21,013 nucleotides of DNA from a virus, in the IMG/VR virus record IMGVR_UViG_3300025131_000515, positions 1 through 21,013 of that record; one strand, 5' to 3'. The notes under the pieces are model-generated. The model was given only the letters and a program-made list of their open reading frames with translations. It did no database searches and was not told where the DNA came from. A program made the position numbers and the translations under genes. Position 1 is the stretch's first letter; each line of letters begins with the position of its first letter. Below, one piece after another: positions 2,994-21,012 of this stretch.

Positions 2994-3316
2994 AACTCTG
3001 GGTGCTCCTCTTCTAATAAATCAAAAATGTTTTCTATTTCGCCTTCGCTAAGTGCAAAGTCCTTAAGGGTCGTCTTTCCTTTGTTGCGTAGTTGCGCAGA
3101 TTTTGCCTTTTTAATTTTAGACTGATCTTTTACTTCATCAACATATCCTTGAATTCTGTGATCACCTGTGATGTATGCTGTTATCATATGACGAAAAAAG
3201 GCAGACTGCGTAAGTCCATCCTGTTTTAATCTGATTAAAAGTTGAGCTTGGCGGTGATCATTGTCTGTGAAGATTATTCGTTTTGTTAAGTTTCCATAAT
3301 CTATTTCCGTAGACAT
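2990..3316 (-). CDS. Small putative DNA-binding (ribbon-helix-helix-like) protein
   Basis: A 108-residue protein. The first half (RIIFTDNDHRQAQLLIRL, then GLTQSAFFRHMI) has the strand-helix-turn-helix rhythm of ribbon-helix-helix regulators; the middle (about 65-85) is Lys-rich and the C-terminus is acidic (IFDLLEEEHPEL). No residue pattern proves the fold. AGGAG lies five bases before ATG 3316, and the start overlaps the thioredoxin-like stop as TAATG; it is coupled by ATGA to the sigma region 4-like gene, so the two may act in one regulatory step. Function not established. Confidence 0.78.
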   Translation of the reverse strand: MSTEIDYGNLTKRIIFTDNDHRQAQLLIRLKQDGLTQSAFFRHMITAYITGDHRIQGYVDEVKDQSKIKKAKSAQLRNKGKTTLKDFALSEGEIENIFDLLEEEHPEL

Positions 3317-3681
3317 TATTTCTCCTTCTCAATAAATTCTTTAATATCGTTCAAATGGTACCATGTCTCTTTGTTTGGTTCCTCTGGATCCTTTAACACT
3401 CTAATCTTGGGCGTATTAAATCCTGTTTTAACCAAGGTAATTGTGGGCACTCCATTAAACCCTATAATCTTTTCTGCTTGTGGATAATCAGCGATATTAA
3501 AAGCAAAAAAGTGTAAGTCTGAGTATTCTTTGTTTTCTGCTATGTCTTTATAAGGGCTGCTTAATTTATGACAGAACGGGCACTTATTCGAATAAAATTT
3601 AATAACACAAATTGCTGCTTCATTTACTTTACCAGATAATAATTTTTGAAGTGCTGGTTTTGACAATCTATCAATCGACAT
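3316..3681 (-). CDS. Thioredoxin-fold protein with CPFC active site
   Basis: A 121-residue thioredoxin-like protein: beta strand CVIKFYS leading into Cys34-Pro-Phe-Cys37, an aspartate-containing loop (NIADYP), and the cis-proline loop GVPT with Pro79. The dipeptide between the cysteines is Pro-Phe, between that of thioredoxin (Gly-Pro) and of glutaredoxin (Pro-Tyr). Such phage proteins commonly reduce ribonucleotide reductase; this window has a class II reductase with a C-terminal Cys pair, so that is a reasonable partner. AAGGAGAG precedes ATG 3681. It overlaps the zinc-ribbon gene by 11 bases upstream. Confidence 0.87.
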   Translation of the reverse strand: MSIDRLSKPALQKLLSGKVNEAAICVIKFYSNKCPFCHKLSSPYKDIAENKEYSDLHFFAFNIADYPQAEKIIGFNGVPTITLVKTGFNTPKIRVLKDPEEPNKETWYHLNDIKEFIEKEK

Positions 3682-3925
3682 TTTCTCTCTCCTTAACTAC
3701 TTTTTTTGCCTTTTCAATACAGGGAGGGCAAAATAAGCGAACCTTTTCCGCCTCCTGGTGAACAACCACCGACCAAGACATCACCATTTCTTTGTTTTTC
3801 TTGTCAAATGATTCGTGACATGTATCACATTTATCAGGCAAAAGCCCAAATAACGCAACCTCAGAGGCCAATGCCTTTTCGGCTTTTGATGTCTTCTCCA
3901 AAGCTCGTCTTTGCTTTCTATTCAT
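3671..3925 (-). CDS. Small zinc-ribbon-like protein
   Basis: An 84-residue protein with two CxxC pairs, Cys33/Cys36 (CDTC) and Cys66/Cys69 (CPPC), about 30 residues apart, consistent with a single zinc ribbon. Both ends are Lys/Arg-rich (MNRKQRRALEK at the start). ATG 3925 overlaps the stop of the Dam-type gene as ATGA, with GGAG five bases upstream. I recall similarly starting small proteins in marine phages without known function. Nucleic-acid or protein binding is possible. Confidence 0.8.
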   Translation of the reverse strand: MNRKQRRALEKTSKAEKALASEVALFGLLPDKCDTCHESFDKKNKEMVMSWSVVVHQEAEKVRLFCPPCIEKAKKVVKERENVD

Positions 3926-4410
3926 CCTCGCTCCATCGTATACACAGATGGATATAGGTTTCGAATATAAGAAGACCCCGAATTAAATACCACTACTGCA
4001 GAGGGAAACGGAGCAGAGTTCTTAGAGTCTCCAAATTTAAGGCGTCCTTTAATAAAATGAATCTCTGATGCTCTCATTACATATTTGTGCCAGTACTTTG
4101 TATCAGTTCGGGCAGGGATGAGCATCACCACTTTGGTATCATCCTTCTGGCTTTCTCTATATCCCTTCTCTACCCACTCTGAGAGGTTGCCGTAGGGAGG
4201 GTTAACAAAGACAGTTTCCCCTTCCCAGTCTTGGGCCAGTCCATTATCTTCAAGAGTATAATACTTCTTAGCCTTATGATTATCATTTGTAGCACAAGGA
4301 TCCAAAGTAAACTTTCCAAATCTCCAGTCTAGCTTATTAAAAAATTCTTGTGGTGTTGCCCATTCGCCCGTCTTAGAGCTAAACAGCGTTTTTTGTGTTG
4401 TTTTGTTCAT
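3922..4410 (-). CDS. Phage Dam-type DNA N6-adenine methyltransferase
   Basis: A 162-residue protein matching the phage Dam family (DNA N-6-adenine-methyltransferase, Pfam Dam): the N-terminal WATPQEFFNKL segment, FTLDPCA (residues 35-40), the catalytic NPPYG at 70-74, and the GRLKFGD...APFPSAVVVF C-terminal signature. These enzymes transfer a methyl group from S-adenosylmethionine to adenine in DNA and in phages are often stand-alone, protecting the genome. AAGGAG precedes ATG 4410. It overlaps the beta-class methyltransferase by four bases, so two different DNA methyltransferases are made from the same transcript. Target sequence cannot be read from the protein. Confidence 0.9.
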   Translation of the reverse strand: MNKTTQKTLFSSKTGEWATPQEFFNKLDWRFGKFTLDPCATNDNHKAKKYYTLEDNGLAQDWEGETVFVNPPYGNLSEWVEKGYRESQKDDTKVVMLIPARTDTKYWHKYVMRASEIHFIKGRLKFGDSKNSAPFPSAVVVFNSGSSYIRNLYPSVYTMERG

Positions 4411-5318
4411 TTCTCTTCTCCTTCGAAGATATGCTCATTAATTCTTTTTTTAGAAATCTCAATATATTTCTCTTCCATGTCAATACCAAAAAATGTTCGG
4501 CCTTCCTTCATTGCGCCGATCCCAGTTGAGCCACTACCGCAAAAAGGATCCAAAACGATCTTATCAGGTGGACAATAGATCTTACATAAATAAGACATTA
4601 AAGAAATAGGCTTAGGCGTCGGATGATCATTGTATTCTCCACGCTCTTTGCGCGTCACACGCGGAGCATAAAAATATTTCTGATGTTCTGTCTGAACCTC
4701 TCCTATGATGTTGGAAGGATATCGCCCGGCGGGGTTGGCATCAACCTTGCCAAAGTCAACCATCTCCCCTGTAGCAATAAGTGTCCAGCCCTCTTTCTTA
4801 GTTTTAATTGAAGATGCTCTCGCGTGCTTTCCATCCTTTCCGAAAGATCTACGCTTGACGCCTTGACCGACCCATCCAGTAGGAGGCTTGCCGTCCCACG
4901 GAACACGCGTGTTTTCCACGTCAATGACCCCAACCTTCCATTCCTCAAAGTTCTTTTTAATGCTGCCCTTGAATGGTTTCTGCGCAACTACAATTGGTTC
5001 ATGGGCCGGCTTCAATCTATTCTTCTTTGGCATCTTCGTAGTCACCATCCACATAATCTGGTCTTTAATATCAAACCCGGCATCCTCTACCGCGCATGCC
5101 ATTCGATGATAAAGCTGGGGACTACAAAAGCTGAGACAGAAGCTCCCAGGCTTAAGAACTCTCAGCACCTCTTTCCAAACCTCAACTGTTGGAACCGAAT
5201 GATCCCACTCCTCCATTCCCATGCCATATGGCGGATCGGTAATACAACTATCAATTGAATTATCTGAAAAGGTCTTTAGGATTTCTCGACAGTCTCCATG
5301 GAAAAGCTTATGAGACAT
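4407..5318 (-). CDS. Beta-class DNA methyltransferase (N6-adenine likely)
   Basis: A 303-residue S-adenosylmethionine-dependent DNA methyltransferase of the N6/N4 family. Catalytic motif IV DPPYG (28-32) precedes the cofactor motif DPFCGSG (257-263), the beta-class order; the long middle (about 100-235) would hold the target-recognition region, and NPAGRYPSNI and HPTPKP are typical of phage members. DPPY rather than SPPY favours adenine N6. The start is ATG 5318, with AGGGAG nine bases upstream, rather than the frame opening at 5444. It overlaps the endonuclease gene by 11 bases, as expected of a restriction-modification pair, and is followed by a four-base overlap into the Dam-type gene. Confidence 0.9.
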   Translation of the reverse strand: MSHKLFHGDCREILKTFSDNSIDSCITDPPYGMGMEEWDHSVPTVEVWKEVLRVLKPGSFCLSFCSPQLYHRMACAVEDAGFDIKDQIMWMVTTKMPKKNRLKPAHEPIVVAQKPFKGSIKKNFEEWKVGVIDVENTRVPWDGKPPTGWVGQGVKRRSFGKDGKHARASSIKTKKEGWTLIATGEMVDFGKVDANPAGRYPSNIIGEVQTEHQKYFYAPRVTRKERGEYNDHPTPKPISLMSYLCKIYCPPDKIVLDPFCGSGSTGIGAMKEGRTFFGIDMEEKYIEISKKRINEHIFEGEEK

Positions 5319-5964
5319 AATCAAGAACTCCCTGTTCGCAACGCTCACGCTCAGAGTGTGTAAAATAGTCTGTTTTCTCGGCGCCTCCTTTTTGACACCA
5401 CATCGCCCTGAAATATAGATCGAGTCCACGCTGATTAGTGTCATGACTTTTCAATTCTGAATTCAATTCACTAAACACTTTCTTGATCTTAGGTTCGTAA
5501 GCTTCAATCACCTTTCTCTGTTCGTCACTAACAATATCTTCACCTCTGAAAAGAGTTGTGCTATTTGGCTTGGCGCTGCTGAAAATATAGACATACTCCT
5601 TCTTTGGCATGCCGCTGTTGAAAGTTGGATACAATTGCTTGGAACTTTTACATTCTAAAAAATAGACGCGATCATTAACTTTGACAATAAAGTCCGGGCT
5701 GTTGTGCGTCCCACATGGTTGCGAAATGAAGGTATTATTCTCCATATAACACTTTGATGGATCTTTAAGCCATAAATCCCTTACTTTCAAGAACCCCTTA
5801 CTCTTATGATTTATTACCTCGACTAGTCCACGATTAATTAATATATCCTCGACCGCATCTTCATGTTTCGAAATATTATGAACCATCCCGCTGGCAGCGG
5901 CATAATTTTTGTAATAAGGCATCTTCAAAACAGCTTCCAAAATTTGTTTCATGGTTGGTTTCAT
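5308..5964 (-). CDS. Predicted type II restriction-like endonuclease, PD-(D/E)xK
   Basis: A 218-residue protein with a clear PD-(D/E)xK nuclease core: Pro90-Asp91, twelve residues, then Glu104-Cys-Lys106 (VYFLECKSSK), preceded by a helix with Glu35/Glu39 and a QPCGTHNSPDF loop like those of type II restriction enzymes. Length is normal for such enzymes. The directly following overlapping gene is a beta-class methyltransferase, so the natural reading is a restriction-modification pair carried by the phage; alternatively it degrades host or competitor DNA. No recognition site can be deduced and I cannot assign it to a named enzyme. ATG 5964 forms an ATGA overlap with the dUTPase stop and has AGGGAG upstream. 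Confidence 0.8.
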   Translation of the reverse strand: MKPTMKQILEAVLKMPYYKNYAAASGMVHNISKHEDAVEDILINRGLVEVINHKSKGFLKVRDLWLKDPSKCYMENNTFISQPCGTHNSPDFIVKVNDRVYFLECKSSKQLYPTFNSGMPKKEYVYIFSSAKPNSTTLFRGEDIVSDEQRKVIEAYEPKIKKVFSELNSELKSHDTNQRGLDLYFRAMWCQKGGAEKTDYFTHSERERCEQGVLDYVS

Positions 5965-6425
5965 TGGTCTGTGCTCCCTAGTGCTCCTGCGCCTCTGGCG
6001 CTCATTGTAATTGGATATTCATATAGTTCGCCATCTCTTCGTCTGATGGCTCTAAAGTGGACCACAGGCACCATCACAACTTGTGCGATCTTTGTGCCTG
6101 CTTCGATAGTTTGTGTCGTGTTTCCTACATTATGAAGATTGATAAACACCTCTCCATCATAACCTGAATCAACAACACACGCCCCCACCAGCAAGCTACG
6201 CTTAGCTGCTACGCTAGAACGATTCTTTACTTCCAGCATATAACCATGCGGGACTCCAAATCGTAAACCAGTAGAGAGAATCTTACTTTCCCCCGGTGCG
6301 ATAGAGACTGCCCTGTGCAACTCGCTGGATGGAGGCGAGTACCGCACGTCCAACCCGGCATCCGATGGATTGGCACGGGCTGGTTCGTTAGCGGTTGGGT
6401 GGACTAATGCGTATTCAAGCAGCAT
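5961..6425 (-). CDS. dut: dUTP diphosphatase (trimeric dUTPase)
   Basis: A 154-residue trimeric dUTPase hydrolysing dUTP to dUMP and pyrophosphate, keeping uracil out of DNA and feeding dTMP synthesis. All five family motifs are visible: PSDAGLDV (1), NRSSVA (2), VVDSGYDGEVFINLHN (3, with the catalytic Asp and Tyr), GTKIAQVVMVPV (4) and RGAGALGSTD (5, the Gly-rich C-terminal P-loop-like arm). ATG 6425 follows AAGAGGAAC and overlaps the preceding gene by 11 bases. It acts with the deaminase (19517-19966) and reductase (14517-16484) in nucleotide supply. Confidence 0.96.
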   Translation of the reverse strand: MLLEYALVHPTANEPARANPSDAGLDVRYSPPSSELHRAVSIAPGESKILSTGLRFGVPHGYMLEVKNRSSVAAKRSLLVGACVVDSGYDGEVFINLHNVGNTTQTIEAGTKIAQVVMVPVVHFRAIRRRDGELYEYPITMSARGAGALGSTDQ

Positions 6426-6678
6426 TGGTGTTCCTCTTCTTATTCAGAATGAGGTTGTAAGCATCATAGAATTCATCGACGTTCAATTCGCTCTTCATAA
6501 AACGATATGCCTTAACGGCAGTGCGAATCTCGTCGGTGGACAACCACCCGTTGTCACGGAACTCCTTGCGAAGTTCCCTCTTCTGCTCCTTGTATGGTTC
6601 CATCGCTTCTTCGATGGCGTTTAATGATCGAACATATTCTAAGATATAACGATCCTTGTCTGTGTTGTTTGTGGCCAT
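6415..6678 (-). CDS. Small helical protein of unknown function, first gene of the dUTPase transcript
   Basis: An 87-residue, charged, probably all-helical protein. Residues 10-45 look like a helix or short coiled coil (EYVRSLNAIEEAMEPYKEQK), followed by a loop NGWLSTDEIRTAVKAYR resembling a helical DNA-binding or regulatory hairpin. No Cys or catalytic motif. It is the first gene after the promoter at 6700-6728, with AAAGGAGGC closely upstream of ATG 6678 and a predicted leader of only about 15 bases. Function unknown. Confidence 0.82.
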   Translation of the reverse strand: MATNNTDKDRYILEYVRSLNAIEEAMEPYKEQKRELRKEFRDNGWLSTDEIRTAVKAYRFMKSELNVDEFYDAYNLILNKKRNTNAA

Positions 6679-6731: not shown

Positions 6732-7337
6732 TTATTCGAACTTAAAATCAACTTTAACATTAATATTTAAAGTTGGAACATGCAAGTAATTAACTAGGTT
6801 ATGGCGCCTACATTCATGTGGTGCCAGGTACCAATCAGCGTGACCTCTCTGGTGAATAATATCCAAAAAATGGTCTTTGCTTTGTCCACAATTTTCAGCC
6901 ATCATATGAAAAATCTTTTTGTTTAATCTGTCAGCTTCTTTAGCATCTGCTTTAAGCTCTTCAACTTTTCCTTCCATCATCGAACTCACATCGTGAATCA
7001 TTACAGTGGCATCGGGATCCATATATCTTTTTCCTTCGGCTCCAAAGCTTGCTAGCACAACACCACAAGACATCGCCTTGCCTTGTATAATAGTAGCAAC
7101 CGGAATTTTAGAGTGTCTGATGTCTGATATCATCGACATTAATGAATATACTTGACCACCATAACTATCAATTATAATTGGAACTATTGGCTGTCCTGTA
7201 TTTTGCGCCTTGCTCATCTGAGTTGAGAACGCATTAGCAGAATCCTCGTCAAACTTTCTCACACGAACAACAATCGGCAAATCCTCCACTAATTCCTGAT
7301 CTTTCAAAAGTGGACTAAAGTATTTAATAATATTCAT
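6732..7337 (-). CDS. ClpP-like serine peptidase (S14), complete triad
   Basis: A 201-residue ClpP-fold protein with the full catalytic set: Ser90 in AMSCG, His115 in VMIHD and Asp168 in ADWYLAP, plus the oxyanion-loop equivalent DSYGGQV (57-63). It differs strongly from the other ClpP-like protein at 920-1591, so the two are diverged paralogues or separate acquisitions. Partners could be a host Clp ATPase, or it could act alone in processing phage proteins; no ATPase gene is visible here. ATG 7337 has AGGAT eight bases upstream and lies 6 bases after the polymerase gene. It is the last gene before the promoter at 6700-6728. Confidence 0.9.
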   Translation of the reverse strand: MNIIKYFSPLLKDQELVEDLPIVVRVRKFDEDSANAFSTQMSKAQNTGQPIVPIIIDSYGGQVYSLMSMISDIRHSKIPVATIIQGKAMSCGVVLASFGAEGKRYMDPDATVMIHDVSSMMEGKVEELKADAKEADRLNKKIFHMMAENCGQSKDHFLDIIHQRGHADWYLAPHECRRHNLVNYLHVPTLNINVKVDFKFE

Positions 7338-11647: not shown

Positions 11648-12528
11648 AAATACCTCAAAAATCTATCGTAGGCCATACTAGCCGAATGTAGATCTCTGAG
11701 TAGATCTTCTTCTTTAAGTTTTGGTAACTCGATAGAATCCTGCCCTTCCCACGACGGATCTTTCTCCTTGCGCTTTGTCCTTGTGATAGACGTTGTTCTA
11801 AATTTATAATATTTTGGTTTGCCATTTGGTCCGTACCCATTAAATACTCCTTTCATACCTCGGGTTTCCATTTCGGAAATTAGTTTAAATCGCGCCATTG
11901 TTTCGGAAAAATCAAAATCGAGTAAATCTTCTTCCTTGATTCTCGAAACGACGCATGCATCCTTTACGGGTGTGTTTCCATCAATCCTATCAGAAGGATA
12001 AAACCACACCTCGTTAACGAAGTCATCTTCTAGTTTGATGTAATCAACATCATGCTTCCCTCCTCGATTGAATGCTATCCAATCATAACATATATAATCT
12101 GATTTCGCAAGTGTTTTCTCTTTCATTCCCGAACAATTTTGATCTCCAAAAAAATAGCAAGTTTCAAAATTTATTTGGGCGATTTTTGCGTACTCATTCG
12201 AACATACGACTTTATTCTCCTGTAATCTCATACTTTTACATAAGTTGGAAAAAAGAACTTTTCCATCGAGAGATAAGAAGAAAAGAAGACGTTCCCATAG
12301 AGTTTCCTTGGGTATCCCAAAAGTCAAAATCTCGCCAAATGCTTGGAAAAAATTTTCAGCGTTTTCTAGTTTTAGGGAAGAAAAATCTAAATCAGGCCTG
12401 AAGTAGTCGAACCGAAACGGGCGCTCTGGCTCCGAGAACACTATCGGAAGACGTTTGTTAAAAGCAAACAACACAGCCTTCAAGCTGCTTCCAATAACTA
12501 TTTCATCATACTCAAAAACAAAACTCAA
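11644..12528 (-). CDS. Protein with Rossmann-like N-terminus, unknown function
   Basis: A 294-residue protein. Residues 8-36 (DEIVIGSSLKAVLFAF and a following strand ending IVFSE) look like the first strand-turn-helix-strand of a dinucleotide-binding Rossmann fold, although the glycine pattern is GSSxxA rather than GxGxxG. The rest has no motif I recognise; it has many aromatic residues and ends in a basic then acidic stretch. It starts at TTG 12528 with AAGGA seven bases upstream, overlapping the protease stop as TTGA, and overlaps the nucleotidyltransferase-like gene by four bases. A shared pathway with that neighbour is plausible; a flavoprotein is one guess. Confidence 0.75.
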   Translation of the reverse strand: MSFVFEYDEIVIGSSLKAVLFAFNKRLPIVFSEPERPFRFDYFRPDLDFSSLKLENAENFFQAFGEILTFGIPKETLWERLLFFLSLDGKVLFSNLCKSMRLQENKVVCSNEYAKIAQINFETCYFFGDQNCSGMKEKTLAKSDYICYDWIAFNRGGKHDVDYIKLEDDFVNEVWFYPSDRIDGNTPVKDACVVSRIKEEDLLDFDFSETMARFKLISEMETRGMKGVFNGYGPNGKPKYYKFRTTSITRTKRKEKDPSWEGQDSIELPKLKEEDLLRDLHSASMAYDRFLRYF

Positions 12529-13064
12529 TTGAGTTTCCTTAAATGTCTATTATCATAGCCACCGTTTTCCCAATCGGGATTCATTATATGCATATACTGA
12601 GGATAATGTTTCCATCCTAGCGAATGCCCTAATTCATGTTCTAAAACCCTAGGGCGATTAACATCTTTCTGTCTAATAATTATTTTTGCTCTCACGATGT
12701 TGCCTGTTGTTGTGTTTATCGATGTGCTTGTTAGCGCCAAAAAATCATCATCTAAATCTTGGTTGGCGCCAGTTATTATTATGCCACTACCATGATCTAC
12801 ACCAAAACACTCAAGCGAATCATAATCATATAATACATCATGGAATTCATATCCGATATTGCGCCAGTATGCTATAGCTATTTGTACCCTTGTGTGGGAT
12901 ATATTTAACTCTTTACAAATTTTCACTACCGGTGGTACTTTCCAGACGCCTGATTGTTTGGGCTTTCCAAGTGCAAATATTTCATATGGCTCAGCCGTAT
13001 AATAAAAATGTAAAGGATAACTACCTACGTTTACACATGTAAACAACAGCAATAGGAATAACAT
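12525..13064 (-). CDS. Exported metzincin-type zinc metalloprotease
   Basis: A 179-residue protein with the metzincin zinc motif HELGHSLGWKH (His143, Glu144, His147, His153) and a downstream Met-turn HIMNP (Met161), as in matrixin-like peptidases. The N-terminus (about 1-14, nearly all Leu/Phe) is a hydrophobic export signal or anchor, unusual in having no Lys or Arg before it. It would therefore act outside the cytoplasm or be membrane-tethered. It starts 12 bases after the endolysin gene, which suggests a part in lysis, in attack on the envelope, or in the virion. The ribosome-binding site before ATG 13064 is weak. Not a known standard phage lysis protein. Confidence 0.85.
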   Translation of the reverse strand: MLFLLLLFTCVNVGSYPLHFYYTAEPYEIFALGKPKQSGVWKVPPVVKICKELNISHTRVQIAIAYWRNIGYEFHDVLYDYDSLECFGVDHGSGIIITGANQDLDDDFLALTSTSINTTTGNIVRAKIIIRQKDVNRPRVLEHELGHSLGWKHYPQYMHIMNPDWENGGYDNRHLRKLN

Positions 13065-20336: not shown

Positions 20337-20894
20337 TCAATTTAATGTATTATAAAGTCTAACATCTCTTTTAAGATGTTCTATTATTTGTTCTCGCTCT
20401 TTTTCCAGCAGTAGTTCAGAAGATGTGTCTGATGGCAATTCTTCTATCACTTCAAACACAAATGCGTCTTTTCCGTGCTCGTCATAGTCTCGCTGGAGAT
20501 GTTTGTTTGGATGTGTGTTCTTTCGTAAGTGTTTTTTGTGTTCTGTCCATCTTCGTGAATACCGGGTAGATTGCCCGATATACACCTTTCCATTTATTGT
20601 GTTCATTATTAAATACGTTGCTGCTGGGAGATTTTGAAGCCATTGCTTGTCGTATTCTTTGTTGTCTTGACGCCATTGCTTGTTGTATTGCTTTATACGT
20701 TCTTTGTTGTCTGGGTCTTGATAGTATTGCTTGTGGTATTGCTTGTTGTATTGCTTTTTGTGTTCTTTGTTGTCTTGATAGTATTGCTTGTGGTATTCAA
20801 CCACACACGCCTTACATTGGTTTCTGTTTTTACGCATCTCACTAATCGGCTTCACTTCGCCACATTTGCTACAAGTCTTATTCATCTTCTTCAT
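20337..20894 (-). CDS. GIY-YIG endonuclease with N-terminal Cys4 motif
   Basis: A product of about 185 residues. The N-terminus has CSKCGE (Cys8, Cys11) and CKAC (Cys27, Cys30), a zinc-finger-like set common to phage homing nucleases, then repeats of the type KQYYQDNKE (about 35-88), then a GIY-YIG nuclease domain from residue 93: TYLIMN (in place of GIY), VYIG (104-107), RRWTEH, the acidic helix LLEKEREQI and a closing YNTLN. It is probably a free-standing, mobile homing endonuclease. The start is uncertain: frames from 20924, 20894 and 20885 are possible, none with a strong ribosome site; the two shorter ones reduce overlap with the preceding gene. Confidence 0.88.
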   Translation of the reverse strand: MKKMNKTCSKCGEVKPISEMRKNRNQCKACVVEYHKQYYQDNKEHKKQYNKQYHKQYYQDPDNKERIKQYNKQWRQDNKEYDKQWLQNLPAATYLIMNTINGKVYIGQSTRYSRRWTEHKKHLRKNTHPNKHLQRDYDEHGKDAFVFEVIEELPSDTSSELLLEKEREQIIEHLKRDVRLYNTLN

Positions 20895-21012
20895 AAAAAT
20901 CTTTTGCGTTTCCGAGTCTTTCATCGAACTTTCTCACAACCTCTTCGTCCATCAGTTGGAGAATCTTTTCTCTAAATTCTGAGTCATTGAGAATCAGGCC
21001 ACCCCACTTAGA
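20878..21012 (-). CDS. C-terminal end of an unknown gene, entering from the window edge
   Basis: An open frame runs from the window edge to a TAA at 20878-20880, giving 44 residues ending VRKFDERLGNAKDFYEEDE. It is charged and helical, with no motif I recognise. The frame is open to the edge and overlaps the GIY-YIG gene by a few bases in the manner of other gene pairs here, which supports it as a real gene end. Confidence 0.6.
   Translation of the reverse strand, partial: SKWGGLILNDSEFREKILQLMDEEVVRKFDERLGNAKDFYEEDE

Follow-up and report, generated by a model that had tools for sequence, protein, structure and literature searches.

Bacteria and chlorella viruses are well known to carry complete restriction-modification (R-M) pairs; the usual finding in phages is a lone methyltransferase (MTase). 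For the gene pair described in this study, the R-M pairs of chlorella viruses are the closest working precedent. The chlorella virus PBCV-1 encodes the Type II R-M systems CviAI (GATC) and CviAII (CATG), and the endonucleases of such viruses are packaged in the particle (PMC7248222). As in the chlorella viruses, where a restriction enzyme is carried along with an m6A MTase for a 4-bp palindrome (PMC7248222), both components are present in the phages considered here, as predicted from their genes. Unlike the chlorella viruses, which have algal hosts, the present pair is found in bacteriophages, its nuclease is without a Pfam or PADLOC model, and its predicted site is TGCA. The same site is recognized in Helicobacter pylori, where HpyCH4V cuts TGCA. 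The H. pylori enzyme M.Hpy66VIII is a TGC-m6A MTase (PMC10423294). A search of the open-access PMC literature turned up neither a description of this pair nor a TGCA R-M system from cyanophages, which does not prove absence.

Organization of the locus

The DNA that was analyzed, referred to as the window, is a single marine phage record of 21 kb from IMG/VR (IMGVR_UViG_3300025131_000515), to which contig L001 is a near-exact match. An overlapping run of genes on the minus strand begins with a dUTPase (5961..6425; PF00692, 4.4e-16) and continues with a putative Type II restriction endonuclease of the PD-(D/E)XK type (5308..5964, 218 aa), a beta-class DNA MTase (4407..5318, 303 aa), a Dam-family phage N6-adenine MTase (3922..4410, 162 aa), an unnamed gene (3671-3925), and a thioredoxin-like gene (3316-3681). 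From the dUTPase to the unnamed gene, the successive overlaps are 4, 11, 4, and 4 bases. An earlier note on this DNA had described the nuclease frame with Pro90-Asp91 and Glu104-Cys105-Lys106, its 11-base overlap with the beta MTase, and the 4-base overlap of the beta MTase with the Dam-type gene; all three were confirmed from the open reading frames and their coordinates. The best promoter-like match upstream on the coding strand, TTGACA-17-TATATT with a TG before the -10 element (6728-6700, minus strand), was identified by consensus and could drive the overlapping run from a gene at 6415-6678 through the pair.

Elsewhere in the window, there are two ClpP-family proteases (920-1645 and 6732-7337), a highly acidic and repetitive protein of 218 aa with runs such as LEDEEMG (2045-2701), a small protein resembling metalloproteases, whose match to Matrixin (PF00413) is weak and falls below the cut-off (12525-13064), and a SegE-like GIY-YIG endonuclease (20337-20924).

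The Dam-type MTase was identified by its profile match to PF05869 (9.9e-35, 120 bits against a cut-off of 28.1), with NCBIfam TIGR01712 scoring 93.2 bits, just below its cut-off of 97.05. The earlier note had described this gene in one overlapping run with the nuclease and the beta MTase. Since many carriers within the same clade have no Dam-type gene next to the pair, and since this gene flanks a different pair in the sister phage L240, a three-gene system was rejected and the Dam-type gene is considered to be a conserved neighbor only.

The DNA polymerase (PolIII) of L240 is 94% identical to that of the window. Nucleotide homology between the two is lost at window position 5968, where the dUTPase ends, and returns at 4423, immediately ahead of the Dam-type gene. 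In place of the pair, L240 and L241 encode a 233-aa protein with a GHDF...FEVK motif and a 255-aa SPPY MTase (L240:14489-16019). Thus, the locus is an exchangeable slot (4411..5960) bounded by the dUTPase upstream and by the Dam-type gene as a conserved flank. Among 102 loci of the clade with both flanks, 65 slot proteins were Dam-type, and the remaining content varied between loci, from no additional gene to the present pair or to MTases and other proteins that have nuclease-like motifs. Downstream of the Dam-type gene, a weak REase_II match was found in L271 and an MvaI/BcnI-family match in L279.

The L240 genome is low in GACC/GGTC (0.24-0.26) and in GGCC. The closely related L249, L251, and L252 have no GTAC at all (0 of ~58 expected in L249 and L251 together), and their slot contains an NPPF-type gamma MTase (L249:11944-12894).

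The nuclease

The nuclease matches phrog_18119 at 6.3e-38, a family whose function is given as unknown in PHROGs, and had no informative sequence match in the PDB, Pfam, NCBIfam, or PADLOC. When 66 diverse homologues were aligned, only G85, P90, D91, E104, K106, P113, N116, P120, and Y126 proved invariant, with E35 nearly so. As P90, D91, E104, and K106 are all invariant, the PD...ExK motif is not due to chance, and the protein possesses the PD...(D/E)xK catalytic motif of the PD-(D/E)XK superfamily. The dN/dS ratio was 0.05-0.25 in 9 of 10 homologue pairs, dS being saturated in the tenth; therefore, the gene is kept by purifying selection.

A structural model calculated from the homologue alignment was confident (pLDDT = 92.8, pTM = 0.88). 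The nearest solved folds were mostly of the PD-(D/E)XK type and included I-Ssp6803I, Hjc, EcoRV, HincII, and RecU, with weak scores (VIA Z ≤ 6.5). The top VIA row was human Rep15 (Z 6.8); by the tool's own yardstick this may be a chance arrangement and it was not used. A Foldseek search of the model against the PDB gave no E value below 0.07. Among viral structure models, the best match was a protein from Micromonas pusilla virus SP1 (E 7e-5), an algal virus. By fold, EcoRV and HincII come closest among named restriction enzymes (VIA Z 5.2-6.1) and have the PD...(D/E)xK motif in common with the nuclease, but sequence similarity is no more than about 11% and the scores are too weak for membership. 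Since Z does not exceed 6.5 and Foldseek E values were 0.07 or above, the fold alone would not decide the class of nuclease. The earlier note's assignment to this superfamily is consistent with a confident model with nearest folds that are nearly all PD-(D/E)XK, but only at weak scores; the predicted structure supports the fold without proving it.

Two other roles for the nuclease are suggested by these same matches. As Hjc and RecU are among the nearest folds, the protein could be a Holliday-junction resolvase or another phage DNA-repair nuclease. Against this, the nuclease is absent from the examined sequence of 79 of the 80 relative loci in the first scan, and is therefore not a core replication gene. 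It also nearly always adjoins an MTase, and a repair role is exceedingly improbable. In the second, the nuclease would be a free-standing homing or selfish endonuclease promoting the spread of its own locus, with the MTase as a passenger. I-Ssp6803I, a PD-(D/E)XK homing enzyme, is one of the nearest folds (VIA Z 6.5), and the exchangeable nature of the slot would also agree with such a role. The arrangement of the two genes across phages bears on this role and is considered below.

The beta methyltransferase and its linkage to the nuclease

The beta MTase matched the Pfam family N6_N4_Mtase (PF01555) at 3.5e-38 (132 bits against a cut-off of 26.7). Its DPPY sequence (motif IV) lies ahead of DPFCGSG (motif I), which places the enzyme in the beta class. 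Judging from the DPPY motif, the enzyme is probably an N6-adenine MTase. The start was taken as the ATG at 5318 (303 aa), which is common to homologues; a longer reading of 345 aa from 5444 exists.

To survey linkage, IMG/VR was searched with the beta MTase alone and the best 80 matches were examined. The nuclease was found upstream on the same strand in 73 of these 80, a figure that holds for this MTase subfamily and not for all beta MTases since the alignment behind the search came from carriers and the 80 are its closest relatives. The two genes were adjacent or overlapping (within 300 bases) in 57 of the linked loci and had about one gene between them in the other 16. Of the seven unlinked loci, two (L108 and L165) begin at the edge of a contig, and the contigs of L136, L138, L139, and L166 also hold a nuclease match; in one such record that was searched whole, the nuclease is 10 kb from the beta MTase on the same strand. 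No nuclease was found in the L144 locus.

All nine annotated phage records with the beta MTase at ≥60% identity carry the nuclease. The nuclease itself is present in ten annotated records, namely these nine and a Helicobacter phage with another MTase type. Distant relatives of the beta MTase are present in 315 phage records. The orphan MTases of phages (Dam, PF05869, and beta-class N6_N4) belong to the same MTase superfamilies as the genes of the window; in contrast, within the annotated phage collection the nuclease family is confined to the nine close-relative records and the Helicobacter phage. When 20 records were searched whole, both genes were present in 12/12 carriers and neither in 8/8 cyanophage controls. 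Separate and linked endonuclease and MTase genes, as expected of an orthodox Type II system, are thus found both in the survey (73/80) and in the complete records (12/12 and 8/8). From these data, the nuclease and the beta MTase form one unit.

This linkage weighs against two alternatives. Homing enzymes are not generally known to be accompanied by an MTase that matches them, and here the pair is the unit: the nuclease was accompanied by an MTase in most of the loci examined and does not behave as a lone gene. Alternatively, the MTase may serve as an anti-restriction factor against hosts that cut TGCA, with an unrelated nuclease involved in host-DNA breakdown or recombination. Phage MTases with an anti-restriction role are known, as in 936-type phages (PMC4190342). 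The near inseparability of nuclease and MTase (73/80; 12/12, 8/8) speaks against this alternative.

Several loci merit individual mention. In the cyanophage S-CAM4, the beta MTase is one open frame (L005:5477-6364; S-CAM4 46403-47290) that was annotated as a C-terminal fragment and a wrong-strand hypothetical gene. One unrelated gene (phrog_33124 or phrog_2615) lies between the nuclease and MTase in some cyanophages (L006:4503-5900, L005:4520-5473). A 189-kb single-cell contig from Prochlorococcus sp. AG-418-C09 (L088, QCLS01000003.1) carries the pair and has a TGCA ratio of 0.18; this contig may be phage DNA that was amplified along with the cell.

Exchange of partners

The nuclease family occurs directly beside at least four MTase kinds in addition to the beta MTase, giving at least five kinds in all. 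An SPPY MTase adjoins the nuclease in another marine phage clade (L010-L021) and an NPPY MTase adjoins a homologue in Brachyspira. Homologues in a spirochaete, a gammaproteobacterium, a Nautiliaceae genome, and a Helicobacter phage are beside an NPPF MTase; the Helicobacter phage thus resembles the present phages in pairing the nuclease with an MTase, but one that is not of the beta class. A C5 cytosine MTase is the neighbor in an Arcobacteraceae genome (L103), and a second beta-type MTase with DLPY is found beside the nuclease in L034 and L039. Such a variety of partners would be unexpected if the nuclease were unrelated to the MTase, as the anti-restriction alternative supposes.

The exchange also proceeds in the other direction. 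In L381 and L389, the SPPY MTase is kept (86-88% identical) and the upstream protein is swapped for one of 281-283 aa (L381:6836-7681 and L389:5185-6036) that has a GDIKV...VELKVS motif and no PHROG match. TGCA was depleted where this nuclease is paired with either of two MTase kinds and where the SPPY MTase is paired with either of two nucleases, which bears indirectly on a single site for both enzymes. Partner exchange would be expected if one recognition site is what is conserved. Since TGCA holds both an A and a C, MTases producing m6A, m4C, or m5C could all block a TGCA enzyme, and blocking by several chemistries would explain the tolerance of varied MTase partners.

Depletion of TGCA in carrier genomes

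According to Rusinov and co-workers, depletion of a system's own sites is found with orthodox Type II systems and, in the vast majority of cases, not with other R-M types; R-M systems that have been lost leave traces (PMC4687349). Of the 4-bp palindromes, TGCA showed the deepest depletion in a first word scan, and did so in every phage group that has the nuclease. Non-carriers served as controls in each of three clades: the window clade, the T4-like cyanophages, and the clade with the SPPY MTase.

In the window clade, carriers (n = 17) had an observed/expected TGCA ratio of 0.47, compared to 0.87 for non-carriers (n = 79), the strongest difference of 136 words tested (p 1.5e-9). The raw densities were 1.35 per kb and 3.60 per kb, respectively. 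The next most significant of the 136 word classes, and all other palindromes, changed by about 15% or less. TGCA falls alike in AT-rich, mixed, and GC-rich contexts, and the site is therefore one of 4 bp; a 6-bp site such as ATGCAT or CTGCAG was ruled out since all flanking contexts are affected.

Because related loci are not independent, the comparison was repeated on a polymerase tree of 117 rows with seven independent carrier/non-carrier pairs. At a cut-off of 0.7, depletion tracks the gene pair in 6-7 of 7 with none against (sign p 0.016). The result was similar at a cut-off of 0.6; at 0.8, only 3.9 of 7 were in favor and again none against. Individual comparisons include the window (0.51) and its sister L240 (0.73), the carrier L291 (0.25) and L286 (0.76), and the carrier contig of L117 (L320, 0.49) and its sisters L321-L329 (0.71-1.08).

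The other two clades agree. With segments taken across the genome, T4-like cyanophage carriers had a TGCA ratio of 0.41 compared to 0.70 in controls, the lowest ratio of 134 words (p 0.002). In the SPPY clade, a comparison that takes in L381 and L389 with their exchanged nuclease, the values were 0.22 in carriers and 0.65 in non-carriers, again the lowest ratio of 134 words. Depletion of a system's own site in its carrier, which is typical though not universal for orthodox Type II systems, is thus observed in three clades.

TGCA is also somewhat scarce (0.46-0.91) in many T4-like cyanophages that lack the pair, which would be compatible with restriction pressure from hosts and with an anti-restriction MTase. 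As a general trait of marine phages, this weaker depletion was rejected as an explanation for the carriers. Furthermore, close relatives without the pair are mostly not depleted, and along with the linkage and the diversity of MTase partners this makes the anti-restriction alternative unlikely. The homing alternative becomes highly improbable, since genome-wide loss of a 4-bp word implies frequent cleavage sites and not one long homing site.

There are exceptions among the non-carriers. L278, L299, L315, L332, and L414 are low in TGCA with no nuclease in the examined sequence, several being fragments, and several low-TGCA non-carriers, including L315 and L332, are depleted in many palindromes. 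The group L315-L317 is likewise low in TGCA with no nuclease in the examined sequence. A search elsewhere in the records of those exceptions that were checked did not find the nuclease. These cases may represent fragment ends, lost systems, or host pressure; the low values in some non-carriers and the intermediate TGCA of L240 fit the traces of lost systems but are not proof of them. Bacterial homologues of the nuclease (about 23-28% identity) are not consistently depleted (Brachyspira 0.86, Helicobacter phage locus 1.44) and their site may therefore differ.

A model for the function of the pair

Taken from sequence comparisons, the nuclease and beta MTase are probably a cognate, phage-borne, orthodox Type II R-M pair that recognizes TGCA. 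Three lines of evidence give this reading strong support: the linkage of the two genes, the exchange of partners, and the depletion of TGCA in three clades of phages. An R-M pairing had been suggested in the earlier note; that suggestion stands for the nuclease and beta MTase, but the Dam-type MTase is not cognate. The note's two further suggestions, host-DNA degradation and exclusion of rival phages, concern what such a pair would do. The nuclease family phrog_18119 may accordingly be regarded as a probable restriction enzyme.

In the proposed mechanism, both enzymes would be translated from one overlapping message. The MTase would mark the TGCA sites of the phage, probably as TGC-m6A given its DPPY motif. 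The nuclease, which like other Type IIP enzymes would probably be dimeric, would cut unmarked TGCA in the host chromosome early in infection, in co-infecting phages, or in both. In host DNA, and in phages that lack the system, such sites would occur at intervals of a few hundred bases. That TGCA is depleted in carriers suggests incomplete protection of their own genomes. The pair would move as a cassette in the slot between the dUTPase and the Dam-type gene, and the gain could come from breaking down host DNA or from excluding rivals, or the cassette may simply persist for its own sake. Cleavage and methylation, along with their timing and any advantage to the phage, are inferred, and the evidence on specificity is entirely statistical.

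In broader terms, it may tentatively be proposed that marine phages draw on a common pool of exchangeable R-M modules that occupy a fixed slot. Nucleases and MTases of the same specificity would swap partners freely and act within the infected cell as weapons against host DNA and competing phages, and the lost word would be a record of the module.

With this study, an uncharacterized nuclease family becomes a probable restriction enzyme with a predicted site across T4-like cyanophages and other marine phages, including the isolated phages S-SKS1 and S-CAM4. The comparison of carriers with near-identical non-carriers among related genomes also suggests a way to read restriction specificities that are unknown. 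Unrelated ocean phages have this gene pair as well, with partners exchanged, and the use of restriction by lytic phages for host breakdown or for shutting out rivals is made testable. If the predicted action at TGCA is true, a phage could cut the unmarked DNA of its host or of a rival phage while sparing its own.
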